This document shows positions 1 to 20,406 of a DNA stretch of 20,406 bases, piece after piece (the stretch's first letter is position 1; every line of letters begins with the position of its first letter). The DNA is taken from positions 1 to 20,406 of IMG/VR virus record IMGVR_UViG_3300046007_002000; one strand, written 5' to 3'. The position numbers and the translations under genes were made by a program. Source of the stretch: a virus. The notes beneath the pieces are model-generated. The model saw only the letters and a program-made list of their open reading frames with translations, was not told the origin of the DNA and ran no database searches.

Positions 1-1
1 G

Positions 2-4677: not shown

Positions 4678-4685
4678 GAGAGGAA
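4678..4685 (+). promoter_or_regulatory. Ribosome binding site supporting a GTG start
   Basis: GAGAGGAA lies immediately after the stop of the 982-aa gene and ends 7 bases before the GTG at 4693. It is one of the clearest Shine-Dalgarno sequences in the window. It supports GTG as the start of the 304-aa protein, because no in-frame ATG lies upstream in the short gap. Confidence 0.7.
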
Positions 4686-4692
4686 ATAAAAA

Positions 4693-5607
4693 GTGGCAAA
4701 ACAAACAGTAGACGTAGGCGTAGTAGCTAATGACGGTACTGGCGATCCGCTAAGAACCGCCATGATTAAGATTAATGAGAACTTCACCGAATTATATACT
4801 AATGCAGTTCTCACTACATCGGTTTCAGTAGGTAACTCTACTATTAACAGTTCAATGTCAAACACTGCAGGATTTTATGCAGGAAATAGTGCTGGAAATA
4901 GATTTATAGCAAATAGTGCTGTTATTGACATTACTGATGGCACCACTTCATCAAATTTAACAGCAACTACAGCAAAAGTTGGTGCTAATGTTATATTGAC
5001 TACTACTTCAATATTTGTAGGAAACTCTACACAAAATGTTGTTCATTTACAGACATATGTAGATGTTGCTAATACTCAAGGTAATACTAAAATTCTACCA
5101 ACTAGAATGGCGATCGGCGGTGGAACGGCGAATGTTACTATTAACGTGTTAGCTATAGCAGTAACTAATACTATTTCTAATACGACAATTGATGCTGGTG
5201 TTCTAACTATTGCTAATACTAGTACAGGTAGAGCAAATGTCGAGCCAGGTAAAATTACTGTTGGTGCTAACGTTATAGTTAACACGACTATTGTTACTAC
5301 GCCATCAATTAATGTTACATCAAACTCTGGTTTAGGTGTTGGTTCTTATACCATGGCTGGTAATGGATATACGTATCTACCAAACGGACTAAAAATGAAT
5401 TGGGGTTGGGTGTCTGCTAATAGTTCTGATGGTAATGCTGTCTTCTCCAACGCTTTTTCTACTGCAGTATATTCGGTAATTGCAACTAGTAATACTGCTA
5501 CTGCTACATATCAAGCAGGAGTAACAGCTATAAACCTTGGCAACACCAATATTAGAACAGCTAATGTTACTTCTACTAATGTTCGTTGGATAGCGATTGG
5601 AGTATAA
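4693..5607 (+). CDS. Short tail fibre/pin-like protein with gp9/gp10-type N-terminus and gp53-like tip
   Basis: Probable short baseplate-attached fibre. Residues 1-36 contain VANDGTGDPLRTAMIKINEN followed by FTELY. This strongly resembles the N-terminus of T4 gp10 (as remembered: DDGTGDYLRKGGIKINENFDELY) and related fibre attachment domains that dock on the baseplate. Residues about 37-220 are low-complexity beta repeats rich in N/T/V (VGNST, VGANVI), probably a fibrous shaft. Residues about 223-304 (GNGYTYLPNGLKMNWGWV to WIAIGV) look like the gp53-like tail-fibre C-terminal domain, whose usual signature is LPNG..+.WG and a terminal WIAIG. The start is GTG with a strong RBS. The gene lies between the gp7-position and gp8 genes, where T4 has none. 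The modular reading is solid; assignment to receptor binding is inference. Confidence 0.7.
   Translation: MAKQTVDVGVVANDGTGDPLRTAMIKINENFTELYTNAVLTTSVSVGNSTINSSMSNTAGFYAGNSAGNRFIANSAVIDITDGTTSSNLTATTAKVGANVILTTTSIFVGNSTQNVVHLQTYVDVANTQGNTKILPTRMAIGGGTANVTINVLAIAVTNTISNTTIDAGVLTIANTSTGRANVEPGKITVGANVIVNTTIVTTPSINVTSNSGLGVGSYTMAGNGYTYLPNGLKMNWGWVSANSSDGNAVFSNAFSTAVYSVIATSNTATATYQAGVTAINLGNTNIRTANVTSTNVRWIAIGV
5599..5602 (+). promoter_or_regulatory. Ribosome binding site supporting a TTG start
   Basis: GGAG at the very end of the 304-aa gene is 8 bases before the TTG at 5611. It supports TTG initiation of the gp8-like protein. The first in-frame ATG lies about 15 codons further in and would remove the conserved ILPEYKKVVLDEML segment. 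Confidence 0.6.
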
Positions 5608-5610
5608 ATT

Positions 5611-7179
5611 TTGGGAAAAATACTTCCGGAATATAAAAAGGTTGTTTTGGATGAGATGTTGGATAATATTATATCCAACACTTCTCATTATTACGCTGTA
5701 GCATCAAATCCTACAGAATATCCAGGAACAGCCCCTGATGTAACGAGCGATGATTATTCAACCAATTATCATATATGGTCTATGATTTTTGGTAAAAAAA
5801 TATCAAATACTGATATTATACCAATTATCGATAAAAAAATGTGGTCTAGTAATACAGTTTATGATAGATATGATGACACATCAACAACTATGAACGATAC
5901 AAACAATTTTTATGTTATATGTCAACCAGGAATAGTTGGTGGTAATTATAACATCTATAAATGTATCGATAATGCAAATAGTTCTGTTTCTACTGTAGAC
6001 CCAAGTTCTGTTGGTGATCCTACTTCTCTAGTAACATTTACAACTTTTCCAGACAATTATAAGTGGAGATTTATAACTTCTGTTTCAAGCAAAAATTATG
6101 ATAAATTTGCGACTTCGGATTATGCACCATGTCCTGAAAATGCTACTGTAAAAGCTACAGCTAATAATTATTCTGGAATAGATGTTGTTGTTGTAAGCAA
6201 TGGTGGTTTTAATTATGACACCTATCATAGCGGAATTGTAGAATCTGTAGTTAACACAACTCTAGTTCAAATTAGTGCTAATGCATCTTCTACTCCAGAG
6301 TTTTACACAAACAGTGCAATATACATCTATAATACTGGCGAAACCACTTCTCAGTTAAGAACTATTAGTCAATATGTTGCCAATAGTAGAGGAAGATTCA
6401 TAAAAGTTGACAGCGAAGTAAATTCTGAAATTATTATCGAAGGTACAACTCTTTATAAGATAAGTCCGAGAGTTGTTTTCAATACAGATGGAATTACCCC
6501 TAAAGCATATTCCACAGTAAATCCATATAATAACTCTATATTTTCAGTCACTATGCTTGATATTGGATCCGGAATCAATAGAGCAGAAGTTTCTATTGAT
6601 AGTTCAGTAGGTTCCGGAGCAAATCTTTATGCTATTGTACCTCCTCCAGGCGGTCATGGATTTGATCCTGCTTCAGAACTGAATATGAGAGGATTTTGTG
6701 TTGCTTTTTCTTTCGCAAATACAGAATTCGGTAAATATGCTAATAGCGCTAACAGCACTATTCCTATTAATATAACATATAATAAGATAGCTCTGATAAA
6801 AAACCCATATGTAATGGATGAGAATGGTAACAGAGGAGACAGATTTTGGTCGAATACTTTTGACCAGAGATTTATAACCTCTATATCGCCCAATTTTACT
6901 TTTGCATATGATGACTTGATTGTGGGTGAATCTAGTGGCGCAAGAGGTAGAATTGTGTTTTCTAATGGATCTCACATTGGATTTGTAGGCGATAAGTCTT
7001 TTGAAGAAGGTGAAAGATTGTTAGATGACAATTTAACATATGTTACAACCTCGAATTCTTTTGTTACTCGAGGTGACATTTATAATAAAGAGATTAGACC
7101 TTTGTATGTTCAGAATATAAATAATGTTGAAAGATCAAATACTCAAACTGAGTCGTTCAGACTGATAATTCAGATGTAA
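5611..7179 (+). CDS. gp8: Baseplate wedge subunit, T4 gp8-like
   Basis: Probable gp8 homologue, the wedge component that in T4 dimerises and binds gp7 and gp10. The match to T4 gp8 is by ordered landmarks: an early IWSMIFGKK segment (T4 has MWTHMMG), then DIIPIIDKKMWSSNTVYDRY (T4: DAVIPRRDW...RYPD), then NFYVICQ and YNIYKCIDNANSS (T4: WLVYRCLDV). A DNYKWRFITSV segment follows (T4: DGYVWEYLFEI), and RPLYVQNINNVERS near the end (T4: RPPIIMAMDQTEE). At 522 aa it is much longer than T4 gp8 (about 334 aa). The extra length is in the middle, with Gly-turn repeats such as SNGGFNYD and DIGSGI. The start is TTG with GGAG upstream, three bases after the preceding stop. The fold identity is well supported, but the sequence is divergent. 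Confidence 0.75.
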   Translation: MGKILPEYKKVVLDEMLDNIISNTSHYYAVASNPTEYPGTAPDVTSDDYSTNYHIWSMIFGKKISNTDIIPIIDKKMWSSNTVYDRYDDTSTTMNDTNNFYVICQPGIVGGNYNIYKCIDNANSSVSTVDPSSVGDPTSLVTFTTFPDNYKWRFITSVSSKNYDKFATSDYAPCPENATVKATANNYSGIDVVVVSNGGFNYDTYHSGIVESVVNTTLVQISANASSTPEFYTNSAIYIYNTGETTSQLRTISQYVANSRGRFIKVDSEVNSEIIIEGTTLYKISPRVVFNTDGITPKAYSTVNPYNNSIFSVTMLDIGSGINRAEVSIDSSVGSGANLYAIVPPPGGHGFDPASELNMRGFCVAFSFANTEFGKYANSANSTIPINITYNKIALIKNPYVMDENGNRGDRFWSNTFDQRFITSISPNFTFAYDDLIVGESSGARGRIVFSNGSHIGFVGDKSFEEGERLLDDNLTYVTTSNSFVTRGDIYNKEIRPLYVQNINNVERSNTQTESFRLIIQM

Positions 7180-7184
7180 ATTAT

Positions 7185-7188
7185 AGGA
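7185..7188 (+). promoter_or_regulatory. Ribosome binding site for the 2132-aa gene
   Basis: AGGA lies in the 18-base gap after the gp8-like stop, with 9 bases to the ATG at 7198. No promoter-like element is visible in the gap, so the gene is probably read from an upstream late promoter outside the window. Confidence 0.5.
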
Positions 7189-7197
7189 TCATTTTAT

Positions 7198-10100
7198 ATG
7201 TCAATTAATACCAATTTCAGCATTTCTCCATATTTTGATGACTATGTTGAATCTAAGAATTTTTATAAGATTCTTTTCAGACCTTCTACTGCAATACAAG
7301 CAAGAGAACTCAATCAGATGCAGACTATTCTGCAGAAACAGATTGAGAGATTTGGCACACACATATTTAAAGATGGTAGTATAGTTCTTCCTGGTCAGTT
7401 TGATCTACAATTAAAGGTTCCATATGTAAAATGTATCGTCGATGATATCGATACGATAGATTCTTTTTTAAACACTACTATAGTTGGTCAGAAAAACGGC
7501 GTAAAAGCTGTTGTGACCAAAATTGAATATGATGTAAATCTAGACATCCATGTATTTTATCTACGTTATACTGATGGTGGTGTTGGTGCTATTGGAGCTT
7601 TTGTTGAAGATGAGCAGTGTATATCTTCTTCTAATGCGGCTCTAACTATGACTACGATTTCAGAGAGCCCAACAGGGTTTGGTTCTCTATTTTCTATTGG
7701 TTCTGGTGTCATATATACTAAAGGGTTTTTTGCGGCTTTTCCAAAACAAACAATTGTTGTAGACAAATATGATAATACGCCAACAGCAGCTGTTGGGTTT
7801 AAAGTTGAAGAAAATCTTATAACTGATCTTCAAGACGAAACTCTGTTAGATAACGCTCTTGGATCTTACAACGAAAACGCCCCTGGAGCTCATAGGTTTT
7901 CTCTTGATCCAGTGCTAACTGTAAAAAATTACGACGCCGCTTTTGCTGATCCGGATTTCGTATTATTATTGACTCTAAGAGATGGAAATATTGAAGAGTA
8001 TAGAGAAAGATCTCAGTATAATATTATATACGATGAATTTGCAAAAAGAACTTTTGATGAATCTGGAGATTACTATGTTCGTGGCCTAAATTGCACAACT
8101 AGAGAACATCTAGATAATGGTGAAAATGAGGGTCTTTATACTGCTAATAATGGTGGCGATGGAAATAAACTTTCTATTGAAGTTGATCCTGGTCTAGCTT
8201 ATGTTAAAGGTTATGAAGTAAATAATCTGTCAACTAAACATATAGTTGTTGATAAGGCTATAGATTATAAGTTTATTAATTCACAGACTGTAAGCGGAAG
8301 ATCTGGGGGTTATTTCTTTATTAACGAAATAACAGGCGTTCCAGCTTTAGATCAAGGAACAGTAGTAAATTTATATAATACTGCTGAGACTAGACTTACA
8401 TCCAATAAAGATAAAGACAATACTGCATTAACAACAGCTATAGGTACAGCTAGAGTTAAAGCCATGGTTTATGAATCTGGCATCACAGGAACACCAAGCT
8501 GTCAATATAGATTATATCTATATGATATTAATATGTCTTCTGGTTCTCTTTCGGCTGTTAGAGCAGTTGGTTTAGCTTCAACATTTTTTGCTGATATTGT
8601 AACTACCACTATTGATACTGTAACTAAAGCCATATTTAATGGTGATAATAACAATCTATTATTGTTTCCTATAGGATCGAATTATACTAGAACTATCAGA
8701 AGCGAATCAGGTTCGTCAGATACTATATTTACGTTCTATAGAACTGAAAGTAAGAATATTAATTTCGGTGCAGGAACAGGCGGCAACGTTTCAATAACAG
8801 TTTCTACTCCTAATGAAGATATTGGATTTGGTGATGGTGTTCTAACTGCTGCTGAAAAAAGAGAAATTATATTTTCTGTTTCTGCTGATACAGATATTGT
8901 ATTGGATGGAACAGTTTCCGGTTCAGGTAGTACTATAACTGGTTCTGGCACTGCTTTTACTAGATTGCAAGCTGGCGATAGAATCAAAGTCAATGGCAGC
9001 TATTACTTTATTAATACTACTCCTGTTAGTGCCACTAGCCTTCAAGTTGTTGGAACTCTAGCAGGTTCTGTTGGTGCAGGTAATACAATTTATAGATCAT
9101 ATCTTGCTGGTGATATTGTTGATTTGACTTCAAAGGGTTCAGACGGTTTTATCAGAGAAGCATCAGTTTCTGGTACAACTCTTTCTATTGGACTTCATGA
9201 AGATAATAGTAAGACAGGAACAGTTGCTGCTTCTGTTACTTATCCAGTAACTAGATCTTCTGCAGTAGAAATTACTAAAACCTTAAATCCTAATAGATAT
9301 GTAAGAATTAATTGCACTGGTTTCTCAAAAACTCAATTGAAGAGCGCAATCAGTTTGGGTCTTCCTGACGTTTATAAGATTCGTAATATTTGGAAGAAAA
9401 CATCAGCATTTACTGCTGAAGGTTCGGCAAGTCAAGATGTAACAGATAATTTCGTTTTTGATAACGGTCAAAGAGATAATCTGTACGATCACGCAAGAAT
9501 TATACCAAAGTCTTCTACAACATTAGCAAATACCGATTATTTGTTAATAAAACTAGATCACTTTGTTTCTGACTTCTCAACAGGATTTGGTTTCTTTTCA
9601 GTAGATTCTTATCCTATTGATGATACACAATCATCAAATACGGCTATCTTTACATATCAGATACCAAAATATATTTCTTCTGCTGGTTATGAATTCAATC
9701 TAAGAGACACTCTAGACTTTAGACCATATAAAGCTAGTACAGCAGATAGTGCAACTACAGTAACAGCAGCTACTACAAATCCTGCTTACAGCAATACAGG
9801 ATCGCTAAGTTCTGGTGCAAATGGTCTAAGAATTCCTATTACTGATAGTTTAATGTACGTTGATTATTCATATTATTTGCCTCGTAAAGACGTTGTTGTA
9901 ATTGATAAAGATGGTACATTCTCAGTAGTTAAAGGTCAGTCAGCAGAATTTCCTAGAACACCATTTGTTCCAAGTAATTTAATGGGGTTATCAAATATTT
10001 ACATTGCACCATATCCTTCTATTTCTGAAACTCTTGCAAGAGTTTTGAAAACACAGAAGGATACTTGTATTTCAACAAATATCGCAAACATACGTTATAC

Positions 10101-13100
10101 TATGAGAGATATCGGTGTTATTAAAGACAGAGTTGATACTCTAGATTACTACAATGCATTGAATCTTTTAGAAAAACAAGCAAAAGATCTCAAAGTTCTA
10201 GACGATCAAGGTCTAGATCGTTTTAAAAACGGTTTCTTTGTTGATGGATTTATTGATCATTCTTTAGGAGCGACAGATAACGCAGATTATAATATTGCTG
10301 TTGATAAAAAAGAAAAAGTAATAAGACCCGTATTCAACATGGATTCTTTTGGTTATAGTTTGATAGCAAATACTAATGTGCAGAAAACGGGAAATCTATT
10401 AACTCTGCCTTATACTGAAACCACTCTTGTAGATCAAAAAGCTATAACATCAATTAGAAATATTGAACAGAGCGTTTATAGATTTATTGGTGTTATGGAA
10501 TTAACGCCTTCAGGCGATACTTGGTGTGACACTACCACCGTTGACAAATTGATTGCTATCGGGGATACAAGACCTACTGAAGTTATCATGACAACAGAAT
10601 GGGGTTCTTGGCAAACATATTCTACAGGTTATAACCTGTATGATAGAAATATGAACGATACTTCCGGAGTTGTTCCGACTGATCCAAAATATTTTCTAGG
10701 ATCATATACTAGTTATGCTGCTGCTTTACAAGCATCAAAAAGTACTCCACGAAGAAGAGCCAATGGTCAATTGTATACAATTCTTGGTTCTTCGACCGAT
10801 GATAGAGCATTAATTGAAACTATAACAACAGAAACAAGAACAGGCGTTGCAAAAACTATTGATTCTACAACGCAAACACAAAGTGTTGGTAATTTTGTTA
10901 CTGACGTCAGCGTTCAACCTTATATAAGACCACAAGTTATTAGTATCTATGTAAAAGGTTTGAAAGCAAGAACCAAATACTACACATTCTTTGACGGCGA
11001 AGATATGTCAGGTTATGTTGTCTATAAACTAGTCCCTGAAAATGGTGACGTGCTCACATCAACCCTTTTCAGCGCAGAAGGAGAAACTGTAGTTTCTGAT
11101 GATTTTGGTCAGGTTGTGTGTTATCTTCGTATTCCAACTGAAGGTAAGAGATTCAGGGTTGGCACTAAAGAAATCAGAATAACTGATTCTCCTACGAATT
11201 CTGTTGATGCTACATCTTATTCGGAAGCTAATTGGACTGCTATTGGTATTTCTGCACAAAAACAAAATACTATTCTTTCTACACAAATTCCAATAATCAA
11301 AGAGACTGTGGTTACCGAAACTAGAAAGAAACAGGTTACGGAAATAACTGGTCCTTCTTGTATGGCATATTCGTTTAAAATTGATGTCCCACCAGGAGAA
11401 GAGGGCGTATTCTTAACTTCTGCAGAAGTTTATATTGAATCAATGCATCCAACTCTTGGATTCTGGGTAGAAATCAGAGAAATGATTGCCGGTGGAATAA
11501 CTCGTAACCAAGTGCCTTATTCTGAGGTATGGTTAAAGAGAGATGATGCTCGTATCAATCTTAATCCTTTTGATGATTTGGTGGCTAATCCAACTTCTTT
11601 AACTTCTACAGTCATAAACTTTCCATCTCCAGTATTTTTATATAATGATACAGAATATGCGTTTGTTATTCATACCGAAGGGTTGAATCCTGATACATAT
11701 TTTTATATTTCTAGACTTGGAGAGACAGACCTATTAACTGGCAGTCCGGTTACTTCTCGTAAACTAACAGGAACTCTTTATACAACAAATAATAATCTAA
11801 ACTATGATATTGTTCCTGATGCTGATTTGACTATCAAATTCAACAGAGCTCTGTTCACTATCGGAAGTGTTGGTTCAGCAATTCTTGGTAATAAACCAAC
11901 AGAATTCTTACAACTGAAATCTGGTGCTGATAATTTTGCTAGAATAGGTGACTCTGTTGTATCTTCAGACAGATTAACTGTTAATAATGCTACAGGCGGA
12001 TCTAATAGTATTTCTGTTGGAGATATTTTGACAGGATCTACGTCAGGAAAAGTAGGTAATGTTGTTGGTATCGTTTCTGGTAGCTATTATACTGATGGAT
12101 TTGGGTTTGTTAATACTGAAGTTATAACAGTAGCAAATTCTCTTGGTGGAAACAAATTTATCAATTCATCTATTACAACTGTAAATAATGCTACAGGAAT
12201 TTTAAGAAGTTATAATTCTACTAATAACGTTATGATAATTGATGATTCTAGCGGAACTTTCTTTGCTAATGGTAAGATAATGGCAGTTATTAGTAACAAT
12301 ACAGCTGTTATTAATGCTTTTAGTAGTTTCCCATATTCTACCACTAACATTAAACCAGCATATCTAGTATTTAATGCTACTACCTGCACTTTCGAAGAAA
12401 GAGGAACTTATTCTGCTAACAACACTCATACGGAGTATCAACCTGCTTTCCCAGATAATTCTTCTGATTTTGATGAAGAGGTAACTCTTCTTTCTAGAGT
12501 GAATGAAATATCAACTTATGCTGCTTCTGGTCCAAATAGCACTAGTGCTAGCTTGAGAGCGTCTTTGAGAACAGATACAGAATATCTATCTCCTGTTATT
12601 GATCTTTCTAGAGGACACGCTGTTTATGTACACAATATTGTAAATAATAGCGATCCATCTACCAATGCATTAATGATCTATGACATAGTTAATATTTCAC
12701 CAAAGAATATATTAGCTAATACTGCAGGATTTAGTAATACAGACGATACTCTATTAATAAGCAGTGCAAATTCCTTCTATACGGTAGGAGACAAAGTTTA
12801 TTATAGTGTTCCTTCTGGAAATACACCAATTTCTCCTCTAACTGGTAATACGTATTATTACGTGTCTCTAGCTAATACAACTGCTATTCAACTAGCTAAT
12901 ACTCTAGGTGGTTCTAGTATTGATATAGTAGACACACGTGGAGCTGTTGGTGGAGAAATTCATACTTTGACATATACTATTCAAGTAAATGATATGATAA
13001 TTTCTGCTACTGACACCGCAGTTAATGCTTCAGTAATTTCCATTATAGATGATGAATATCTATTATCAAACACTGGTAGTATTTTTACTTATGGTGAAAC

Positions 13101-13596
13101 CATAACAGTAGCAAATTCTTCCGGCGGTGATAAGTTTATGACTGCTACTGTCGGTCCTATTCAGACTTCTGAATCTGGAGTAGCTGGTGGAAATCTTATT
13201 AATAAATATATTAGTAAGAATATAACTTTAGCCAATGGTCAAGATGCTGAAGACTTAAATGTTTATTTAACTGTATATAAGCCTGTTGATACTGATGTTA
13301 AAGTTTGGGTTAAATTAAAAAATGGTGAAGATAGTGAAACTTTATCACAGAAAGAATGGATAGAATTGGTTTATAACGATAATTTTAATTCATCATCAAT
13401 AAATAAAGGTGATTTTGTTGATTTGCTTTATAGTATACCTGATGCATATATGAATAATGGAATTTTTGAATATCTTTCTGATGGTGTTACTTACTCTACC
13501 TTTAAACAGTATGCTATCAAAATTGGATTATTTGCATCTAACTCTGCCCGTGTTCCTAGAGTCACTGACCTAAGAACCATAGCTTTACAGAAGTAA
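7198..13596 (+). CDS. Giant virion structural protein with DUF4815-type N-terminus (2132 aa)
   Basis: The largest gene here, probably a peripheral baseplate or tail protein. Residues about 7-67 (ISPYFDDYVESKNFYKILFR, AIQARELNQMQTILQKQIER, FGTHIFKDGSIVLPG) are the signature of the DUF4815 family found in many T4-like marine and rhizobial phages. YVKGYEVNNLSTKHIVVDKA and LRDTLDFRPYK (about 830-845) also fit that family. A helical stretch follows near residues 965-1020 (LDYYNALNLLEKQAKDL). The later part contains a carbohydrate-binding-like beta region (VFLYNDTEYAFVIHTEGLNP then YFYISRLGE), a module shared with the 982-aa protein (1841-1924), two copies of an ITVANS.GG.KF segment, and a conserved C-terminal domain ending VPRVTDLRTIALQK. 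It follows gp8, where T4 has genes 9-10. Virion location is likely; the precise role is unknown. Confidence 0.7.
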   Translation: MSINTNFSISPYFDDYVESKNFYKILFRPSTAIQARELNQMQTILQKQIERFGTHIFKDGSIVLPGQFDLQLKVPYVKCIVDDIDTIDSFLNTTIVGQKNGVKAVVTKIEYDVNLDIHVFYLRYTDGGVGAIGAFVEDEQCISSSNAALTMTTISESPTGFGSLFSIGSGVIYTKGFFAAFPKQTIVVDKYDNTPTAAVGFKVEENLITDLQDETLLDNALGSYNENAPGAHRFSLDPVLTVKNYDAAFADPDFVLLLTLRDGNIEEYRERSQYNIIYDEFAKRTFDESGDYYVRGLNCTTREHLDNGENEGLYTANNGGDGNKLSIEVDPGLAYVKGYEVNNLSTKHIVVDKAIDYKFINSQTVSGRSGGYFFINEITGVPALDQGTVVNLYNTAETRLTSNKDKDNTALTTAIGTARVKAMVYESGITGTPSCQYRLYLYDINMSSGSLSAVRAVGLASTFFADIVTTTIDTVTKAIFNGDNNNLLLFPIGSNYTRTIRSESGSSDTIFTFYRTESKNINFGAGTGGNVSITVSTPNEDIGFGDGVLTAAEKREIIFSVSADTDIVLDGTVSGSGSTITGSGTAFTRLQAGDRIKVNGSYYFINTTPVSATSLQVVGTLAGSVGAGNTIYRSYLAGDIVDLTSKGSDGFIREASVSGTTLSIGLHEDNSKTGTVAASVTYPVTRSSAVEITKTLNPNRYVRINCTGFSKTQLKSAISLGLPDVYKIRNIWKKTSAFTAEGSASQDVTDNFVFDNGQRDNLYDHARIIPKSSTTLANTDYLLIKLDHFVSDFSTGFGFFSVDSYPIDDTQSSNTAIFTYQIPKYISSAGYEFNLRDTLDFRPYKASTADSATTVTAATTNPAYSNTGSLSSGANGLRIPITDSLMYVDYSYYLPRKDVVVIDKDGTFSVVKGQSAEFPRTPFVPSNLMGLSNIYIAPYPSISETLARVLKTQKDTCISTNIANIRYTMRDIGVIKDRVDTLDYYNALNLLEKQAKDLKVLDDQGLDRFKNGFFVDGFIDHSLGATDNADYNIAVDKKEKVIRPVFNMDSFGYSLIANTNVQKTGNLLTLPYTETTLVDQKAITSIRNIEQSVYRFIGVMELTPSGDTWCDTTTVDKLIAIGDTRPTEVIMTTEWGSWQTYSTGYNLYDRNMNDTSGVVPTDPKYFLGSYTSYAAALQASKSTPRRRANGQLYTILGSSTDDRALIETITTETRTGVAKTIDSTTQTQSVGNFVTDVSVQPYIRPQVISIYVKGLKARTKYYTFFDGEDMSGYVVYKLVPENGDVLTSTLFSAEGETVVSDDFGQVVCYLRIPTEGKRFRVGTKEIRITDSPTNSVDATSYSEANWTAIGISAQKQNTILSTQIPIIKETVVTETRKKQVTEITGPSCMAYSFKIDVPPGEEGVFLTSAEVYIESMHPTLGFWVEIREMIAGGITRNQVPYSEVWLKRDDARINLNPFDDLVANPTSLTSTVINFPSPVFLYNDTEYAFVIHTEGLNPDTYFYISRLGETDLLTGSPVTSRKLTGTLYTTNNNLNYDIVPDADLTIKFNRALFTIGSVGSAILGNKPTEFLQLKSGADNFARIGDSVVSSDRLTVNNATGGSNSISVGDILTGSTSGKVGNVVGIVSGSYYTDGFGFVNTEVITVANSLGGNKFINSSITTVNNATGILRSYNSTNNVMIIDDSSGTFFANGKIMAVISNNTAVINAFSSFPYSTTNIKPAYLVFNATTCTFEERGTYSANNTHTEYQPAFPDNSSDFDEEVTLLSRVNEISTYAASGPNSTSASLRASLRTDTEYLSPVIDLSRGHAVYVHNIVNNSDPSTNALMIYDIVNISPKNILANTAGFSNTDDTLLISSANSFYTVGDKVYYSVPSGNTPISPLTGNTYYYVSLANTTAIQLANTLGGSSIDIVDTRGAVGGEIHTLTYTIQVNDMIISATDTAVNASVISIIDDEYLLSNTGSIFTYGETITVANSSGGDKFMTATVGPIQTSESGVAGGNLINKYISKNITLANGQDAEDLNVYLTVYKPVDTDVKVWVKLKNGEDSETLSQKEWIELVYNDNFNSSSINKGDFVDLLYSIPDAYMNNGIFEYLSDGVTYSTFKQYAIKIGLFASNSARVPRVTDLRTIALQK

Positions 13597-13601
13597 GAAA
13601 A

Positions 13602-13811
13602 ATGAGTTTAAAGAAAACCGATGTAGAGGGTCTTTATCGCGATGTTGAAACTAGAGCGGTGTTGAATGTTGACAATTCCGCTCTAGAGGCATACAAGAAA
13701 AGAAAAAGAGCAAATGAAGAATTTGTTCAATATAAGAAAAAAATAGAACAGATTGATAATGATATTAATGAGATCAAAAACATTCTAAAATCAATTGTAG
13801 AGAAAATTTAA
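13602..13811 (+). CDS. Small coiled-coil protein preceding the long fibre gene (69 aa)
   Basis: A short, highly charged protein. Residues 1-24 carry an MSLKKTDVEGLYRDVETRAV segment ending in VLNVD, of a type I associate with small proteins in marine T4-like phage structural clusters. Residues about 25-69 are a predicted amphipathic helix with heptad spacing (YKKKIEQIDNDINEIKNILK), most likely a coiled coil. The gene starts five bases after the preceding stop, and its own stop is immediately followed by the ATG of the 1122-aa fibre gene, so the two are probably translated together. It has no signal peptide or membrane segment. It could be a virion linker or an assembly chaperone for the fibre. 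T4 gp57A is a small coiled-coil fibre chaperone, but no homology is visible. Confidence 0.65.
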   Translation: MSLKKTDVEGLYRDVETRAVLNVDNSALEAYKKRKRANEEFVQYKKKIEQIDNDINEIKNILKSIVEKI

Positions 13812-16800
13812 ATGGCTGTAACTATCGCGAATACAGAAATAACGCAAACTTTTGACTATTGGAGAAATAGAACAAACGAACTTGCTTGGACCATGAGTAA
13901 GGTTGTTTTGACTACTGACGGATCTCTTGCTCCATCAAGTCTTATAGGGAATTCTGTAGCAACTGGTAATACCACAATAACTGGTACTTTTTTTGCAAAT
14001 CAATTTACTTCTAATTCTAGAGTAACAGTCAAAGATTCTATATATGTTAATACAGCGACAGAAGTTAATGGCGCTATTACTAGTAGTTTTGTTATAATAA
14101 ACACAACCAGTATATCTGTTGGTAATGTTACTAGTAATACTACTCTTACAAATAATAGTTTATACACAAGAAATGTTTTTATAGGTTCTAATGTTACAGT
14201 AAATACTACTTTATTTTTAATTGGTGATTCTTCTGCAAATAATAGAATTTCTCAAAACAATATCATTATTCAAGCAAACGATATTGTGAATAGTGTATCA
14301 AATGCATCTTTATTAAAACTATCTAATAATTCTATAAATTCTACTTTGACCTATAATTCGCTGATTATGGGTAATACGACAGTCAATTCTACAATATTGT
14401 CTACTGGGGCTGGTGTATTTACTGCAAATGATATATCTCTAAATGCCAATGGAATAGTTGTAAATTCTTCTGGTGCTTTTGTTACTAACACTAGCGGTGT
14501 AGTTAATGCAGCTGTTCATCAGGTTGGAACTTCTTTTACTGCCAATTCTACATTAGTAAACACAGCCGCTATAAACATTATTGGTCAAACAAACACTGCT
14601 ACCCTGTTTGTTATTACTAGTGCAAACATTGCATCTTCAAATGTTATAGCTAACACCTCTGGTTTGTTTGTAGCTAATGCTACTGGTATCGTTAATGCTG
14701 CCACTCATTCTGTCGGAACAGCGTTTACAGCTAATGCAACTTTAGTAAATGCTGCAGCAGTAAATATTGTTGGTCAGACTAATACATCCACTCTGTTCGT
14801 TACTACTTCAGCTAATATTGCATCTTCAAACGTAATCGCTAATACTTCTGGTTTGTTTGTAGCTAATGCTACTGGTATTGTTAATGCTGCCACTCATTCT
14901 GTCGGAACTTCTTTCACTGCTAATTCTACTCTTGTTACTGCTGCAGCAGTAAATATTGTTGGTCAAACAAACACTGCTACACTCTTTGTTACTACTTCAG
15001 CTAATATTGCTTCTTCAAATATAATTGCTAACAGTGCTGGATTATTTGTAGCTAATGCTACTGGTATTGTTAATGCTGCAGTACATCAGGTAGGAACTTC
15101 TTTCACTGCTAATTCGACATTAGTTAATGCTGTATCTTATTATGCAGGAACAACGTTAATTGGTAATACTATCGGTCCTTATGGTAAGCTCGAAATTAAT
15201 CTTAATGTTAATAACGCATTAACAGCTAACAATTCAACCTATTTGAACGGTCAGTTAGCATCGTATTATTTGAATGCTACCAATATTAATGCAGGCACTC
15301 TTGCATGGGCCCATGCTCCTGTAGGAACAGTAAACACCACTGGTTCTTTTACATTATCTGGCAACACCACATTAGCGGGCACAAACACTGTCATTAGTTC
15401 TAATATTAACGTTACTGGTGCATTTATTAATGTAGGCGCTTTAGTAAATACTGCTGCTATTAATGTAAGAGGTCAAACAAATACCAACACTCTATTTGTC
15501 AATAGCGTTGCGAATATCTCTGGTAACTCTACTATTTCTGGTAACTGGGCAAATGTTACTGGAGACCTATTCGTTCGTGGTAATTTGACAGTTAATGGTT
15601 CATTAACTTATGTTGGTAACGCCGCTGGAGATATCATCCCTCCAAGTAACAGTTTCTCTCTTGGTAATACATCAAATAGATGGGGTTTTTACGGTGTTGT
15701 AATTGATAATATAGGTAATACAACATCAAATAATGTTAACGTAACATTAACAGTAAATGCTGCTAATCATACAGTAGGTTCTGATTTTATTGCTAATTCT
15801 ACTGGCGTATATCACACTGGTCTTGTTAATGCCGCTTCTTATAGAGCAGGTAACTTTACCACAGGAACTGGTGGTTCTATTCAGAATACCACCACTATGT
15901 TTGTTGGAAATAACACTATCAATACTGTTATTACTTCTGCTGGTTTGAATATCAATTCTGTTACTATTGCTAACTCCTCTGGACTTTATACTGACACGGT
16001 AAACGCTAGTATTATCAGAACTGGTGGGGGATTCAATACATTAGCTAACGGTGTTTACATAGACTCTGATGATATTTGGTTTGGTAACAGTTCAGTATCA
16101 GCTACTGTCAATTCTACTTTTTATAGTAAAACAGCAAATAATACATCATTCGTAGGTTCTGTTTCTGCTGTAAACGTTGTTTCTAATGCTCAGTTGTCTG
16201 CTAATTTGACAAATTATGCTGCACTAGCTGGAGCTACCTTTACAGGCGCTGTTCAGGTATCAAACAACGTAACTATTACTGGTAACTTGATTGTTTCTGG
16301 TACAACAGTATCAGTAAATACTCAAACTCTTGATGTTAGAGACCTTAACATTACGGTAGCTAAAGGCGTTGGAACTGCTGCTCTTGCTAATGGTGCAGGA
16401 TTGACAGTAGATACTGCTGGTATTGGATGGTATTATCATAATACTTCAAACACTTGGCAGTCTAATGTAGGAATAACTCCTTCTTCTAACAATTCTTATT
16501 CTCTAGGAACTACTGGGTTAAGATGGTCTGCACTGTTTACTAATAATATTACCGCTACGACCATAACAGCAACAAACGTTTCATCTACTGATGTTTATGG
16601 TACAGTTCGAACTGCAACACAGGGTACAATAGATCATAACAGTCTAGCAAATTATGACGCCAACAGACATGTTGATCATACTGCAGTTTCTATAACAGCA
16701 GGTAATGGTTTGACTGGTGGAGGAACTATTGCAGCTACTAGAACTCTATCAGTTGTAGGAGCCAATGGTATCTTAGTTACTGCCGCTGGTATTAATGTTT

Positions 16801-17180
16801 TTGGAAATACTGGAATTGTATCTAATTCTTCTGGTGTATTCGCTAACGCAACTTATATTCAGTCCCTAGTAAATATTTCTAATAGTTCCGTAACCACTAG
16901 TGGAACTTCTGCGCAAAATATTGATAGCTTTACTAAGGCTGGTTTTGCAGGCGCAGAATATCTTATCAATGTTTCTGATAATTCTGCTAATAATAAATAT
17001 ACTACTAAAGTTTTAGTCGTGCATGATGGTACAAATGCTGATATAACAGAATATGCAGCAATAACTTCTAATAATTCTGTTGGCGTATTTTCTGCGACAC
17101 AAAATACAACTCATGTTATATTACAATTTACACCATCATTAACTGCGACAACTGTAAAATATACTAGAACGGTAGTCTAA
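13812..17180 (+). CDS. Long tail fibre/adhesin with tandem 63-residue repeats (1122 aa)
   Basis: Probable long fibre-like virion protein. The N-terminus (TFDYWRNRTNELAWTMSKVV) is the only compact, non-repetitive head and resembles attachment heads of fibre-like proteins in marine T4-like phages. The shaft is extremely rich in N, T, S, A and V. It contains three full plus one partial 63-residue repeats at residues 221-440 and a decayed relative near 537-565. Two LG.t..RW modules follow (about 610-635 and 890-915). Residues 962-1010 (TAGNGLTGGG onward) recur in the 528-aa protein. The C-terminal ~105 residues (SAQNIDSFTKAGFAGAEYLI, KVLVVHDGTNADITEYA, then a TVKYTRTVV end) form a distinct domain that I associate with phage structural proteins. 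The ATG follows the upstream stop with no gap, and the stop overlaps the next ATG (TAATG). Receptor binding is inferred. Confidence 0.7.
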   Translation: MAVTIANTEITQTFDYWRNRTNELAWTMSKVVLTTDGSLAPSSLIGNSVATGNTTITGTFFANQFTSNSRVTVKDSIYVNTATEVNGAITSSFVIINTTSISVGNVTSNTTLTNNSLYTRNVFIGSNVTVNTTLFLIGDSSANNRISQNNIIIQANDIVNSVSNASLLKLSNNSINSTLTYNSLIMGNTTVNSTILSTGAGVFTANDISLNANGIVVNSSGAFVTNTSGVVNAAVHQVGTSFTANSTLVNTAAINIIGQTNTATLFVITSANIASSNVIANTSGLFVANATGIVNAATHSVGTAFTANATLVNAAAVNIVGQTNTSTLFVTTSANIASSNVIANTSGLFVANATGIVNAATHSVGTSFTANSTLVTAAAVNIVGQTNTATLFVTTSANIASSNIIANSAGLFVANATGIVNAAVHQVGTSFTANSTLVNAVSYYAGTTLIGNTIGPYGKLEINLNVNNALTANNSTYLNGQLASYYLNATNINAGTLAWAHAPVGTVNTTGSFTLSGNTTLAGTNTVISSNINVTGAFINVGALVNTAAINVRGQTNTNTLFVNSVANISGNSTISGNWANVTGDLFVRGNLTVNGSLTYVGNAAGDIIPPSNSFSLGNTSNRWGFYGVVIDNIGNTTSNNVNVTLTVNAANHTVGSDFIANSTGVYHTGLVNAASYRAGNFTTGTGGSIQNTTTMFVGNNTINTVITSAGLNINSVTIANSSGLYTDTVNASIIRTGGGFNTLANGVYIDSDDIWFGNSSVSATVNSTFYSKTANNTSFVGSVSAVNVVSNAQLSANLTNYAALAGATFTGAVQVSNNVTITGNLIVSGTTVSVNTQTLDVRDLNITVAKGVGTAALANGAGLTVDTAGIGWYYHNTSNTWQSNVGITPSSNNSYSLGTTGLRWSALFTNNITATTITATNVSSTDVYGTVRTATQGTIDHNSLANYDANRHVDHTAVSITAGNGLTGGGTIAATRTLSVVGANGILVTAAGINVFGNTGIVSNSSGVFANATYIQSLVNISNSSVTTSGTSAQNIDSFTKAGFAGAEYLINVSDNSANNKYTTKVLVVHDGTNADITEYAAITSNNSVGVFSATQNTTHVILQFTPSLTATTVKYTRTVV
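14472..15131 (+). repeat. Tandem 189-bp (63-codon) in-frame repeats within the fibre gene
   Basis: Units start at 14472, 14661, 14850 and 15039, exactly 189 bp apart; the fourth is partial (about 31 codons). The consensus begins GLFVANATGIVNAA.HSVGTS and ends with GQTNTATLFV and SANIASSNVIANT. Many differences between units are synonymous third-position changes, so the protein repeat is better conserved than the DNA. Unit 1 is the most divergent (GAFVTNTSGVVNAAVHQ). Its HQVGTSF segment matches unit 4, while units 2 and 3 share HSVGT. Confidence 0.9.
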
Positions 17181-17509
17181 TGGCAACAAAATCAAATCTA
17201 GTTATAGATCAGGGCTCTACGTATTCTGTAGTTTTAGATCTGACGGATGAAAATGGAGATATCATAAATCTTGGTGGGTATACTGCTAATTCTCAGATTA
17301 GGAAATGGTATACCTCTTCTACGCCTGCAGCTACTTTTACAACATCAATTAATGCTTCTTCAGGCGAATTACAGTTGTCTTTGACAGCGAATCAAACAAG
17401 CAATCTAGTGGCTGGTAGATATGTATACGATGTAGAACTAGACAATAATGGTGTTATTTCTAGAATAGTAGAAGGCATAGTAACGGTAACTCCACAGGTT
17501 ACAAAATGA
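17180..17509 (+). CDS. Small beta-sandwich-type virion protein (109 aa)
   Basis: A short protein with alternating hydrophobic/polar strands and no signal peptide. The landmarks VIDQGSTYSVVLDLTDENGD, LGGYTANSQIRKWY and VAGRYVYDVELDNNGVISRI, with an EGIVTVTPQVTK end, fit a widespread small phage protein type found next to fibres. It resembles the N-terminal beta-sandwich of BppU-type baseplate proteins (a polymer-like 'linear-in, gain-out' layout: DL.D..G..+dL.GY). The ATG overlaps the 1122-aa gene stop by one base, and its own end overlaps the next gene by four bases (ATGA), so it is tightly coupled on both sides. A role as an adaptor or cap in the fibre assembly is plausible from context. The sequence alone gives no function. 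Confidence 0.6.
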   Translation: MATKSNLVIDQGSTYSVVLDLTDENGDIINLGGYTANSQIRKWYTSSTPAATFTTSINASSGELQLSLTANQTSNLVAGRYVYDVELDNNGVISRIVEGIVTVTPQVTK

Positions 17510-17775
17510 GCGCAATTAACGTTGTAGTAGGCAGAACTAAAAATATTCAAATTTCAGCCAATGCTACAGGCGGAAGTGTAAGCACAAACAGAAATCCTGT
17601 TACATTAAAATCTACTTTGCCTTCTGCAACAAGATTAGATGCTCTAAATGATGTAGTAGCCAGCGGTGAAGTCTCCGGAGCAGTTCCGGTTTATGATTCT
17701 GCAACAGACAAATATGTGGTTCAAAAACTTGATTTAAGTAATGTTATTGGCGATTTAGACGGCGGAACCTTTTAA
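17506..17775 (+). CDS. Small structural protein ending in LDGGTF (89 aa)
   Basis: It starts at an ATG overlapping the preceding stop by four bases. Residues about 40-75 contain a module common in phage tail proteins (RLDALNDVVASGEVSGAVPV, YDSATDKYVVQKLDL). The protein ends in Asp-Leu-Asp-Gly-Gly-Thr-Phe, the same last six residues (LDGGTF) as the 528-aa fibre downstream. The first 30 residues (INVVVGRTKNIQISANATGG) are beta-type. Tight overlap with the 109-aa gene suggests equimolar production, and the two may work as a pair. There are no membrane segments and no catalytic motif. The function is unknown; a virion location is inferred from context. Confidence 0.6.
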   Translation: MSAINVVVGRTKNIQISANATGGSVSTNRNPVTLKSTLPSATRLDALNDVVASGEVSGAVPVYDSATDKYVVQKLDLSNVIGDLDGGTF

Positions 17776-17779
17776 AACC

Positions 17780-17825
17780 TTTTTGTAATAAATACAAAAA
17801 AATTTTTGTAATAAATACAAAAAAA
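17780..17825 (+). repeat. Two identical adjacent 23-bp repeats, each an inverted repeat
   Basis: Copies at 17780-17802 and 17803-17825 are identical over 23 bases. Within each, TTTTTGTA and TACAAAAA form a perfect 8-bp inverted repeat around a 5-base centre (ATAAA): arms 17780-17787/17793-17800 and 17803-17810/17816-17823. Each arm has a single G or C, so an RNA hairpin would be weak. This is the longest gene-free gap in the window (17776-17850). Confidence 0.9.
17787..17817 (+). promoter_or_regulatory. Candidate tandem T4-type late promoters
   Basis: AATAAATA occurs at 17787-17794 and 17810-17817. It fits the NATAAATA late-promoter element reported for T4-like cyanophages (T4 itself: TATAAATA), recognised by the gp55-type late sigma factor with sliding-clamp activation. 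The position fits: a transcript starting just downstream of the second copy would have a leader of about 25-30 bases carrying AGGAG before the ATG at 17851. The same 8-mer also occurs by chance inside genes in this AT-rich DNA, so the evidence is location plus exact duplication. Confidence 0.5.
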
Positions 17826-17834
17826 GATTCCAAC

Positions 17835-17839
17835 AGGAG
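17835..17839 (+). promoter_or_regulatory. Ribosome binding site for the 528-aa fibre gene
   Basis: AGGAG with 11 bases to the ATG at 17851, slightly long but the best match in the leader. It confirms the start MANNRIQIKRS, which is also the conserved N-terminus of the paralogue at 19717. Confidence 0.6.
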
Positions 17840-17850
17840 CAAATTTTTAA

Positions 17851-19437
17851 ATGGCTAATAACAGAATTCAAATTAAGAGAAGTCCATCTACGGCCACGCC
17901 TTCGTCATTACAACCAGGCGAACTAGCGTTTTCTAACGCTACAGGCGGGTCAGGTGTCCTTTTTATTGGTTCTACTGATGGAGGCACAGTTGTTCCTATC
18001 GCTGGTGTTAGAACTCCTGGTACTCTGACAGCTAACCAAGCTCTTGTTGCAAACGCAACTTCTGGCATTGATAAAGTCATTGTAGCCAATCTTGTTCCTA
18101 CAAATATCTGGGCTAATGGAGCCACAGCTAATTCAGGCGATGTTCTGTATTCAGATGGATCTAAAGTTTATTGGAGGGCTCCTTCTGCTGGTATTGCAGG
18201 TTCAAACGCTCAAGTTCAATTTAATGACAGTGGAGTCCTTGCCGGTGATGCTGGTCTAACTTACGATAAAAATACTGACACTCTAACAACTGTAAGTCTA
18301 TTAGTGACTTCTAATGTTACGGCTTCTAGTGTTAATGCTGCTATTATTCAAGTCGGAACTTCTGTAGTTGCAAATTCATCAAGACTTGTTATCGGAACTG
18401 ATGTTGGTCTTCAAGTCAACGGCACTATAGGTACAGCAGGTCAAATTCTTTATTCTAATGGTACGACTGGTTATTGGGCAGCTGCTCCAACAGGAGATAT
18501 TACTGCAGTCACAGCAGGCGATGGTCTTACTGGGGGTGGAACTTCTGGAGATGTAACTCTTAATGTTGTCGCAGGTAACGGTCTTTCTGTTTCAGCTGAC
18601 GCTGTTGCAGTTCTTGCTAATACTGGTGTTGTTGCTAACTCTACTGGTATCTTTATTGGGCAGCCAGTTTCAACAACTAGTAATGTTACATTCGCTAATG
18701 TAGTAACCACTTTTCTTACAGTTAGTGGTAATACTAATCTCGGTGACGCTTCGGCTGATAAGATTAATACTTTCGGATCTTTCTCTAACAGTCTAATACC
18801 AGATGCCAACGTCAGCTACAATATCGGTACTAATGCTCTCCGTTGGAATGAAATCCATGCTTCTAACGTTCACTCAGTAGTAGGTTATTTCGATAATAAT
18901 CTTAACGTTGGTGGTGACCTTATCATAACTGGTAATCTTGTTACACAAAATGTTCAGTCAGTCGTTATCTCCGATCCTATGCTCTATCTTGCTAGTAATA
19001 ACTACGTTAGCGACTTGGTTGATATTGGTTTTTCTGCTAACTATTATGATGGTTCTACTCAGAGACATACTGGCTTCTTCCGTGATGCTACTGATGGTGT
19101 CTGGAAACTATTCGCTAACTCAACTCAAGAGCTTTCGGGCAACAATGTTATTAACACTACTGCAGTAGGTTATACTACTGCTACTCTAGTTACCTATCTA
19201 ACTTCTGGTGGTCTTGTAACAAACGCAACTTCTGTCTATGTAACTGCTAATTCTACAGTAAATGTAAATATCTCTGCTAATGTTATATCTCTTTCTGAAA
19301 GAGCAAATAATGATTTACTATTTGCTAACTCTACAGGTGGTATTACTGGTCTAGCTCTAAATACTACTGGTGGATACGTTCTACAGTCAAACGGAACAGC
19401 TATCGTTTACGACTATTTGGATGGCGGAACGTTCTAA
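17851..19437 (+). CDS. Tail fibre-like structural protein with MANNRIQIKRS head and LDGGTF end (528 aa)
   Basis: Probable fibre or adhesin. Residues 1-50 form a small head (IQIKRS, then LQPGELAF, then GVLFIGSTDGG) similar to phage fibre N-terminal domains of the Mtd-N type, in which a GE(L/I)A step is followed by a display turn. Shaft modules follow: GTIGTAGQILYSNGTTGYWA (about 190-212), TAGDGLTGGG onward (221-268), SYNIGTNALRW (about 318-340), and a GDLIITGNLVTQNVQSVVIS module with DPMLYLASNN (about 350-385). Next comes a VDIGFSANYYDGSTQRHTGF domain with RDATDGVWKLF, which I associate with phage tail fibre-like proteins. The protein ends YDYLDGGTF. It sits behind its own candidate late promoters, unlike the overlapping genes upstream. 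The structural role is well supported by composition and context; the ligand is unknown. Confidence 0.7.
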   Translation: MANNRIQIKRSPSTATPSSLQPGELAFSNATGGSGVLFIGSTDGGTVVPIAGVRTPGTLTANQALVANATSGIDKVIVANLVPTNIWANGATANSGDVLYSDGSKVYWRAPSAGIAGSNAQVQFNDSGVLAGDAGLTYDKNTDTLTTVSLLVTSNVTASSVNAAIIQVGTSVVANSSRLVIGTDVGLQVNGTIGTAGQILYSNGTTGYWAAAPTGDITAVTAGDGLTGGGTSGDVTLNVVAGNGLSVSADAVAVLANTGVVANSTGIFIGQPVSTTSNVTFANVVTTFLTVSGNTNLGDASADKINTFGSFSNSLIPDANVSYNIGTNALRWNEIHASNVHSVVGYFDNNLNVGGDLIITGNLVTQNVQSVVISDPMLYLASNNYVSDLVDIGFSANYYDGSTQRHTGFFRDATDGVWKLFANSTQELSGNNVINTTAVGYTTATLVTYLTSGGLVTNATSVYVTANSTVNVNISANVISLSERANNDLLFANSTGGITGLALNTTGGYVLQSNGTAIVYDYLDGGTF

Positions 19438-19467
19438 TCGTATCATCCTTACAAAGGTAATTATACT

Positions 19468-19680
19468 ATGGATCCTGAAATTGTCAATATCTATATTGAA
19501 AGATTATTAAACGAAGTGGCGGAGGGTGCTAAATCTCGCATCCTCCTCGAAACCAGATTAAAATATACTGAGTCTATAAATGTCAATCTTTCTGGAAGAA
19601 TACAACAATTAGAGGCGCAGTTAGAAAAACAGAATAAAAAGATTACAAAAAAAGAAGTAAATACTTCTGATACTTTTTAA
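19468..19680 (+). CDS. Small coiled-coil protein between two fibre genes (70 aa)
   Basis: The start MDPEIVNIYIERLLNEVAEG is followed by one long amphipathic helix (about residues 5-62, with LSGRIQQLEAQLEKQNKK), predicted to form a coiled coil. The C-terminal tail is Lys-rich and then TSDTF. Short proteins beginning with a D-P-E-(I/V) helix are familiar to me beside fibre genes in marine T4-like phages. The RBS AAAGG (19453-19457) is 10 bases before the ATG. The gene lies in the same arrangement as the 69-aa gene at 13602: a short coiled-coil gene immediately before a long fibre. It might be a linker or a fibre-folding chaperone. No sequence homology to T4 gp57A is visible, and the function is unknown. 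Confidence 0.65.
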   Translation: MDPEIVNIYIERLLNEVAEGAKSRILLETRLKYTESINVNLSGRIQQLEAQLEKQNKKITKKEVNTSDTF

Positions 19681-19683
19681 AAC

Positions 19684-19699
19684 TTCGGTATATACCGAA
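19684..19699 (+). repeat. Perfect 16-bp palindrome upstream of a fibre gene
   Basis: TTCGGTATATACCGAA equals its own reverse complement and sits in the 36-base gap between the 70-aa gene and the next fibre gene, just upstream of GAGGA. As RNA it can form a 6-bp stem with an AUAU loop. No T-run follows, so it does not look like an intrinsic terminator. A protein-binding site or leader hairpin is possible. Confidence 0.75.
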
Positions 19700-19705
19700 C
19701 TGTAC

Positions 19706-19710
19706 GAGGA
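19706..19710 (+). promoter_or_regulatory. Ribosome binding site for the partial fibre gene
   Basis: GAGGA with 6 bases to the ATG at 19717. It fixes the start of the partial gene at the right edge, whose N-terminus (MANNRVQVKRT) matches the paralogue at 17851. Confidence 0.7.
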
Positions 19711-19716
19711 AGCCAT

Positions 19717-20406
19717 ATGGCAAACAATAGGGTTCAAGTAAAACGCACGTCTACAGCTGGACGTACGCCTAACACCACTGGTTCATACGCCACAAATTCT
19801 CAATATATTTCAGCGGGCGAACTAGCCCTTAATATGACAGATGGTATTCTTTATACCTCTGACGGAACAAATCTTATTGAAATTGGTGCTAATAATACTA
19901 ATCAACGTATAACCAATTCTCTCACTGTTAATAACGATAAAAATTTAAGGTTTGTAACTGTCAATACATCTGCTGCGGTATCATTCGTTCAGCAGAGTGA
20001 TGATAATTTCGTCATGTATTCGACTAATACCGCATATGGCCAAAGAGCAATATGGAGCGTTTACGCTAATAGTATAACGTCAAATCTTCAAATACAAGTT
20101 CCGTTACAATTAAATGCTGGTCTTGTTGCTAATGGCGGATTAGGTTCTGCTGGCCAAGTATTAACGTCAAACGGTACTACGACATATTGGTCAACTGTTT
20201 CTGGCGGCGCAGGCTCAGTAAACACAGCGGTTCAATATACTTGGACTAATCTTCACACATTCAGTGCTAACGTAGCATTCACTGGTAACGGTATAGGTCT
20301 TACGACAAATACTGCAGCAATATATCTAGGTGGATTAGCAGATAATAACTGGAAAATTGGTAGAAATACAGGTTCTACTACAAAATGGAGATACACTAAT
20401 AACTCA
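19717..20406 (+). CDS. Tail fibre-like protein, paralogue of the 528-aa protein (3' end outside window)
   Basis: The frame is open from the ATG at 19717 to the right edge: 230 codons with no stop, so the gene continues. The head is MANNRVQVKRTSTAGRTPNT followed by YISAGELALNMTDGILYTSD. It repeats the head of the 528-aa protein (MANNRIQIKRS, PGELAF, GVLFIG) with a longer loop between the basic start and the GELA step. Residues about 138-162 contain GLGSAGQVLTSNGTTTYWST, also shared with the 528-aa protein (GTIGTAGQILYSNGTTGYWA). Residues about 180-230 (FSANVAFTGNGIGL, LGGLADNNWKIGRN) look like the start of a further beta module. The matching heads suggest that both proteins attach to the same kind of virion site. 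The RBS and palindrome lie just upstream. The C-terminal receptor-binding part is not visible. Confidence 0.7.
   Translation, partial: MANNRVQVKRTSTAGRTPNTTGSYATNSQYISAGELALNMTDGILYTSDGTNLIEIGANNTNQRITNSLTVNNDKNLRFVTVNTSAAVSFVQQSDDNFVMYSTNTAYGQRAIWSVYANSITSNLQIQVPLQLNAGLVANGGLGSAGQVLTSNGTTTYWSTVSGGAGSVNTAVQYTWTNLHTFSANVAFTGNGIGLTTNTAAIYLGGLADNNWKIGRNTGSTTKWRYTNNS

Follow-up and report, generated by a model that had tools for sequence, protein, structure and literature searches.

A tandemly duplicated late-promoter-like element in front of a tail-fibre gene of a marine T4-like phage

What role might be served by two identical, palindromic copies of a short sequence lying directly in front of a tail-fibre-like gene: that of a promoter, a protein-binding site or an RNA element? 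The stretch of DNA analysed here (hereafter the window), a virus record of 20,406 bases, carries a T4-like baseplate and fibre cluster, and its source is a marine T4-like phage. PHROG matches include baseplate wedge subunits (2-1729, 1729-4677 and 5611-7179), and a 2132-aa protein (7198-13596) matches VrlC-type and other phage structural proteins, the best match being to Ochrobactrum phage OC (34% identity). The 528-aa fibre-like protein encoded downstream of the repeat had no PHROG match at an E-value of 0.001, and tblastn of the 89-aa protein encoded upstream returned no match in phages; the C-terminal ends of these two proteins are alike (DLDGGTF, ending at 17775, and YLDGGTF, ending at 19437). 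The window also contains a 189-bp tandem repeat (14502-15132, 3.3 copies, 80% matches) inside a 1122-aa fibre-like gene, as well as a perfect 16-bp palindrome, TTCGGTATATACCGAA, at 19684-19699, within a gap of 36 nt that leads up to the following fibre gene (19717), and just 5' of the ribosome site. This palindrome is identical in the related contig L006 and is kept with one central change in the related genome G001. The features under discussion are listed in Table 1.

Table 1. Coordinates of the repeat copies, predicted leader, candidate promoter and flanking genes in the window.
Feature	Position	Strand	Details
Repeat copy 1 (23 bp)	17780..17802	+	Inverted repeat 17780-17800; core AATAAATA 17787-17794
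Repeat copy 2 (23 bp), identical to copy 1	17803..17825	+	Inverted repeat 17803-17823; core AATAAATA 17810-17817
Predicted copy-2 transcript leader	17823..17850	+	Shine-Dalgarno AGGAG 17835-17839
Tail-fibre-like gene (528 aa), first downstream of repeat	17851..19437	+	N-terminus relatives in 390 viral stretches
Gene of 89 aa upstream of repeat; relatives mark the homologous gap	17506..17775	+	Homologue scans
TATAAATA within end of preceding gene, 82 bp before vrlC-like gene 7198-13596	7116..7123	+	Candidate promoter, upstream cluster part

Tandem Repeats Finder reports the interval 17780-17825 as an exact tandem repeat (period 23, 2.0 copies, 100% matches). Each copy has the form TTTTTGTA-ATAAA-TACAAAAA, a perfect 8-bp inverted repeat that folds into a stem of 8 pairs, and AATAAATA begins at the final base of the left arm, takes in the loop and extends two bases into the right arm. 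Repeat finding and folding thus confirm the original prediction of two identical 23-bp copies, each with a perfect 8-bp inverted repeat around AATAAATA. The repeat had also been placed in the widest gap of the cluster, and this gap (17776-17850) indeed measures 75 nt, against at most 36 nt for the other gaps between the ORFs used. It is the sole exact tandem duplication of period 12-79 in the window. The question of further copies had likewise been raised: with both strands of the window searched at up to 3 mismatches, matches to the 21-mer TTTTTGTAATAAATACAAAAA (17780-17800 and 17803-17823) were confined to the two repeat copies, 0.01 matches being expected per shuffle. WATAAATA is not enriched across the window (6 observed vs 8.7 expected).

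The best reading of this element, which we hold with considerable confidence, is a gp55-dependent late promoter of the T4 type that has been tandemly duplicated by slippage or recombination and drives the 528-aa fibre gene. T4 late promoters are described as carrying TATAAATA at -13 to -6, as lacking a -35 element and as being followed by AT-rich DNA, and the late-promoter form of cyanophage S-PM2 as NATAAATA (PMC2988020, PMC1524935, PMC2984593); in T4, A is found at -13 in 9 of 50 sites (PMC2988020). With A permitted at the first position, TATAAATA is matched by AATAAATA at 17787 and 17810. The element shares with T4 and cyanophage late promoters (TATAAATA/NATAAATA) an 8-bp core, here with A first, an intergenic location on the strand of a structural gene, AT-rich downstream DNA and a leader with a Shine-Dalgarno sequence; it differs from them in being an exact tandem 23-bp module whose T- and A-tracts form a perfect dyad. 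Following the -13 to -6 rule (PMC1524935), which puts the start 13 nt from the first core base, transcription is predicted to begin at ~17800 (copy 1) and ~17823 (copy 2), upstream of the structural gene and in its direction, with room for leaders of 51 nt and 28 nt, respectively. At the repeat itself, no sigma-70-like site was detected, no terminator-like site (a G+C-rich stem followed by a U run) was present on either strand, and Rfam gave no match at gathering thresholds. Elsewhere in the cluster, the TATAAATA at 7116-7123 is a candidate promoter, and G001 has CATAAATA at the apparent counterpart place; in phage pf16, TATAAATA has been reported upstream of the VrlC-like gene (PMC5587285).

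The leader sequence AAAGATTCCAAYAGGAG is common to the window and the related contigs L006 and L010. A scan for the leader 17-mer AAAGATTCCAACAGGAG recovered 31 stretches, comprising 2 homologous ones, 19 located before a gene whose product starts with MALTSPGVQV, 1 before another gene and 9 without a core. The MALTSPGVQV gene is presumably tail-sheath-like. In its 19 contigs (within the range L133-L163, e.g. L140), AAAGATTCCAACAGGAG sits behind a CTAAATA core, which in many of them lies within an inverted repeat of its own, GCTA-N8-TAGC; the stretch preceding the other gene has a CATAAATA core. A blastn search with 211 bases of one AAAGATTCCAACAGGAG leader region found nothing in phages.

Late cores recur at the homologous position in relatives of the phage. 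Scans with the 89-aa gene yielded 10 loci, in addition to 4 from an earlier scan on partly shared contigs, and the resulting 11 gap rows, which include three identical ones and the near-identical L017 and L018, represent 9 distinct relatives. A late core lies at, or within ~15 nt after, the stop codon in all nine. Two cores occur in L015, and each of the other eight relatives has one, of the TATAAATA, AATAAATA or CTAAATA type. The L015 doublet resembles that of the window in its upstream gene, its fibre neighbour and its number of cores, and differs from it in that the cores are unlike, lie 13 bp apart, have unlike flanks and form no repeat. The contig closest to the window (94.3% identity over 1-11726, 92.8% over 4542-18287 and 90.6% over 18610-19896) has a single TATAAATA in the homologous gap. 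In G001, the gp45-like sliding clamp gene (G001:C1:111419-112074) is split into two ORFs in different frames, and the fibre start at L010:10320 is likewise frameshifted; this suggests that the G001 record holds frameshift-type sequencing errors, and its gap sequence is therefore less certain.

A wider scan with the fibre N-terminus, in which the best 80 of 390 relatives were kept and 18 duplicates dropped, provided 63 distinct gaps including that of the window. Among the other 62 gaps from these best 80 of 390, 34 contain one core (two of them with the stop unresolved), 1 contains an overlapping double core and 27 contain none; of these 63, the window alone has two separate cores. The 27 gaps devoid of a core count against the late-promoter reading, as does the lack of WATAAATA enrichment across the window. 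The core is hence conserved in position in 9/9 homologous gaps and in 35/62 gaps of the wider set (best 80 of 390 relatives), two counts that are not independent, since the fibre set includes contigs of the 89-aa-gene set.

The machinery for late transcription was sought by iterated profile search in nine genomes or large pieces (G001, the partial G002, G003, T4, S-PM2, HTVC008M, OC, Mosig and Melnitz). This search identified gp33 in all nine, and gp55 and gp45 in the same eight, the partial G002 being the one without them. For the relatives of the window, this amounts to gp55 in G001 and G003, gp45 in G001 (as the two ORFs noted above) and G003, and gp33 in G001, G002 and G003; the window, a 20-kb fragment, stops short of these genes. 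Taken with the placement of the element and with the recurrence of late cores in the corresponding gap of related contigs, the presence of gp55, gp33 and gp45 in relatives supports the earlier view of a late-promoter-like element that has been duplicated.

If this late-promoter reading is correct, host RNA polymerase programmed by gp55 and tethered via gp33/gp55 to the gp45 sliding clamp would open the DNA at AATAAATA and begin RNA synthesis at one or the other predicted start, extending into the fibre gene. The transcription bubble covers -12 to +2 of the start (PMC7892883). Given the size of the polymerase, the 23-bp spacing probably excludes two polymerases at once, so the copies would act as alternative starts. 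Late initiation at the fibre gene would probably increase modestly, with a weak 5' hairpin on mRNA started at copy 1. Boosted or separate expression of the fibre gene, as originally proposed, is plausible. We regard the element as a small variation on an ordinary promoter rather than as a novel system of control.

The exactness of the duplication sets it apart. The nine comparison genomes contain 9 exact tandem duplications of period 12-79, 3 of them intergenic, and no exact tandem repeat with a late core; the same genomes contain 8 non-overlapping pairs of unlike late cores within 60 bp. An exact duplication of a late core is unusual, whereas unlike doublets are not rare. The core and an AT-rich melt region are all that a T4 late promoter requires, so that slippage by 23 bp would copy it whole. 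The copies had been thought recent, and this fits their identity over 23 bases and the single core of the closest relative, although these observations do not date the event. A rival account, compatible with the late-promoter reading, makes the duplication an artefact of assembly or sampling, a minor variant, or a neutral and transient expansion without effect. In its favour, the duplication occurs in one contig, no exact duplication appears in the relatives read (the best 80 of 390 for the fibre set) and A/T-rich repeats undergo slippage. We deem this unlikely, because both copies retain a complete core and because the 46 bp involved are shorter than common reads, which makes an expansion error an improbable source. 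That the 23-bp module is an expandable unit, with slippage varying its copy number between phages and hence, through the number of late promoters, fibre dose and adsorption, is a long shot; each added copy would also give the longer mRNA another 5' hairpin. Among the titles listed from the literature on T4-like late promoters, none concerns an exact tandem late promoter, which is not to claim its absence in print.

Among the 8 unlike pairs is the late-core doublet before T4 gene e, a gene described as having two late promoters (PMC3014915). As in the window, a single late gene is immediately preceded by two close late cores, and there is RNA secondary structure in the vicinity; the T4 cores, however, are 13 bp apart and are not parts of an exact repeat, and the structure in the longer T4 transcript hides the ribosome site, whereas the repeat hairpins of the window do not. 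The latter are predicted at -4.1 kcal/mol for one copy (z -3.5) and -8.8 kcal/mol for both (z -3.4). These energies could point to an RNA-level element, in which hairpins present in readthrough and copy-1 transcripts and missing from copy-2 transcripts would alter stability or translation, much as in the early/late switch known from T4 gene e; a start at copy 1 would place the copy-2 hairpin near the mRNA 5' end, and T4 gene e does have its two late promoters beside such a structure (PMC3014915). We judge such an element very improbable. The stems are almost wholly A-U, pairing amounts to 5/8 in L006 and L010, and both the Shine-Dalgarno sequence (17835-17839) and the AUG (17851) are predicted to lie outside the repeat hairpins. 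Weak pairing with UUCC is predicted for the former, within a separate small stem (-2.4 kcal/mol for the copy-2 leader alone), which is the same in both leaders and so does not distinguish the starts. A switch of the T4 gene e type, in which structure in the longer transcript would hide the Shine-Dalgarno sequence or the AUG, was rejected on these predictions.

The palindrome itself is most likely an incidental by-product of T-rich and A-rich flanks. Numbering flank positions outward from the core (-1 just before it, +1 just after it), the dyad would result from an A-type core that follows a T-tract, precedes an A-tract and has T at -1, together with one chance G-C pair; once T5/A5 tracts flank such a core, with T at -1, only one pair remains open (-2/+1, G-C here). 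Among promoters of relatives, the core is often preceded by T and followed by A. Across 176 intergenic NATAAATA sites before ORFs in nine T4-like genomes or large pieces, a count that, like the other intergenic ones given here, is approximate because the gene calls are mechanical ORFs, none shows more than 6/8 pairs, and pairing is not clearly above that of shuffled flanks in any of the nine (permutation P from 0.06 in Mosig to 0.85). Late-promoter prediction in pelagimyophages has been reported as unsuccessful (PMC7029224), so the NATAAATA sites counted need not all be promoters, and the counts for HTVC008M and Mosig are weakened. A set of 43 promoters of relatives, which overlaps the 176 sites, was obtained by reducing 50 sites to 47 distinct ones and subtracting the window's 2 and the 2 of G005. 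Here too the dyad is not above shuffled flanks (P 0.14), and pairing of 8/8 would be expected at ~1.5e-4 per promoter if columns were independent. One of the G005 sites pairs 8/8, but G005 had come to light through the 21-mer search and was excluded for that reason; it is also absent from the 176-site set.

The opposing possibility is that each palindrome is an operator, bound by a dimeric phage or host protein that would tune the fibre promoter. The arms are perfect over 8 bp in both copies, and the exact 21-mer occurs in three records of viral contigs (L003, L004 and L005). In L004, from a distant T4-like phage, it precedes a gp17-like (terminase) gene; segments of the encoded protein share 27-37% identity with the corresponding proteins of three relatives. 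ORFs run antisense to the core in both L003 and L005, although the one in L003 begins with TTG and may really start on the far side of the motif. In eight cultured T4-like genomes searched with the second core base free, no place matched the 21-mer with fewer than 3 mismatches, and 3-mismatch places occurred in 2/8. Within the clade, the relative L230 (3 contigs) has a 7/8 dyad, and three members are complementary at -2/+1 through differing letters (G-C in the window, A-T in L230, T-A in L229), as an operator would favour, but this pair is broken in L010.

Two collection scans bear on the open pair and lean in opposite directions. The first searched for T4/A4 arms, as TTTTNTANTAAATANAAAA with a ribosome site and an ATG behind it, with the first core base fixed as A, the second free and any base allowed at -2/+1; it returned 46 stretches with 46 rows, which are phage sites of any kind and not necessarily T4-like, 15 being complementary at -2/+1. 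Twenty-eight rows lie outside ORFs of 100 codons, and 19 of these, representing 13 distinct sites, have a downstream ORF of at least 60 aa, 1 of the 13 being complementary. A late core is present in 10 of the 13 (8 AATAAATA and 2 ACTAAATA), and 1 of these 10 late-core sites, the L230 sequence, is complementary; the tracts thus recur more often than the complete dyad, which tells against an operator. The rows dropped, which lean the other way (12/27 complementary), comprise 9 outside ORFs lacking a downstream ORF of that length, 6 of them complementary (5 being near-copies), and 18 inside ORFs, 6 of them complementary. In the second scan both -2 and +1 were restricted to G or C, and 80 of 87 stretches were read. 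Complementary pairs make up 52 of these 80 (G-C 36, C-G 16, C-C 15, G-G 13). Sixty-two of the 80 rows fall within ORFs and 18 outside, where 15/18 are complementary, and the 6 intergenic AATAAATA rows (4 distinct sites) are all complementary. This second result leans against an incidental dyad and towards an operator, although many rows are copies, other intergenic hairpins are expected and, among the 4 distinct sites, L004 alone is followed within 100 nt by the start of an ORF and hence lies in promoter position.

Known binding proteins offer little to an operator. An NtcA box, defined as GTA-N8-TAC (PMC3037559), was rejected, the spacing here being GTA-N5-TAC. The best candidate for a second protein would have been DsbA, a T4 DNA-binding protein whose A/T-rich sites overlap two late promoters (PMC2988020). 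Among the nine genomes DsbA was found in T4 only, a weak negative for so small a protein; cyanomyoviruses reportedly lack it (PMC2984593), and pf16 reportedly has it (PMC5587285). With dyads no stronger than in shuffled flanks, a complete dyad at 1 of 10 T4/A4 late-core sites, a spacing unlike that of NtcA and DsbA in a single genome of nine, the idea that a second protein binds at the palindrome finds little support, and we consider an operator quite improbable.

For the study of such phages, the locus urges caution, as a palindromic look need not denote an operator where an A/T-rich late promoter has T- and A-tracts. It also suggests a way in which a marine phage of the T4-like kind might adjust the dosage of a single fibre gene, namely by duplication of a minimal late promoter, which needs no upstream element and of which a slip of 23 bp would yield a complete second copy.
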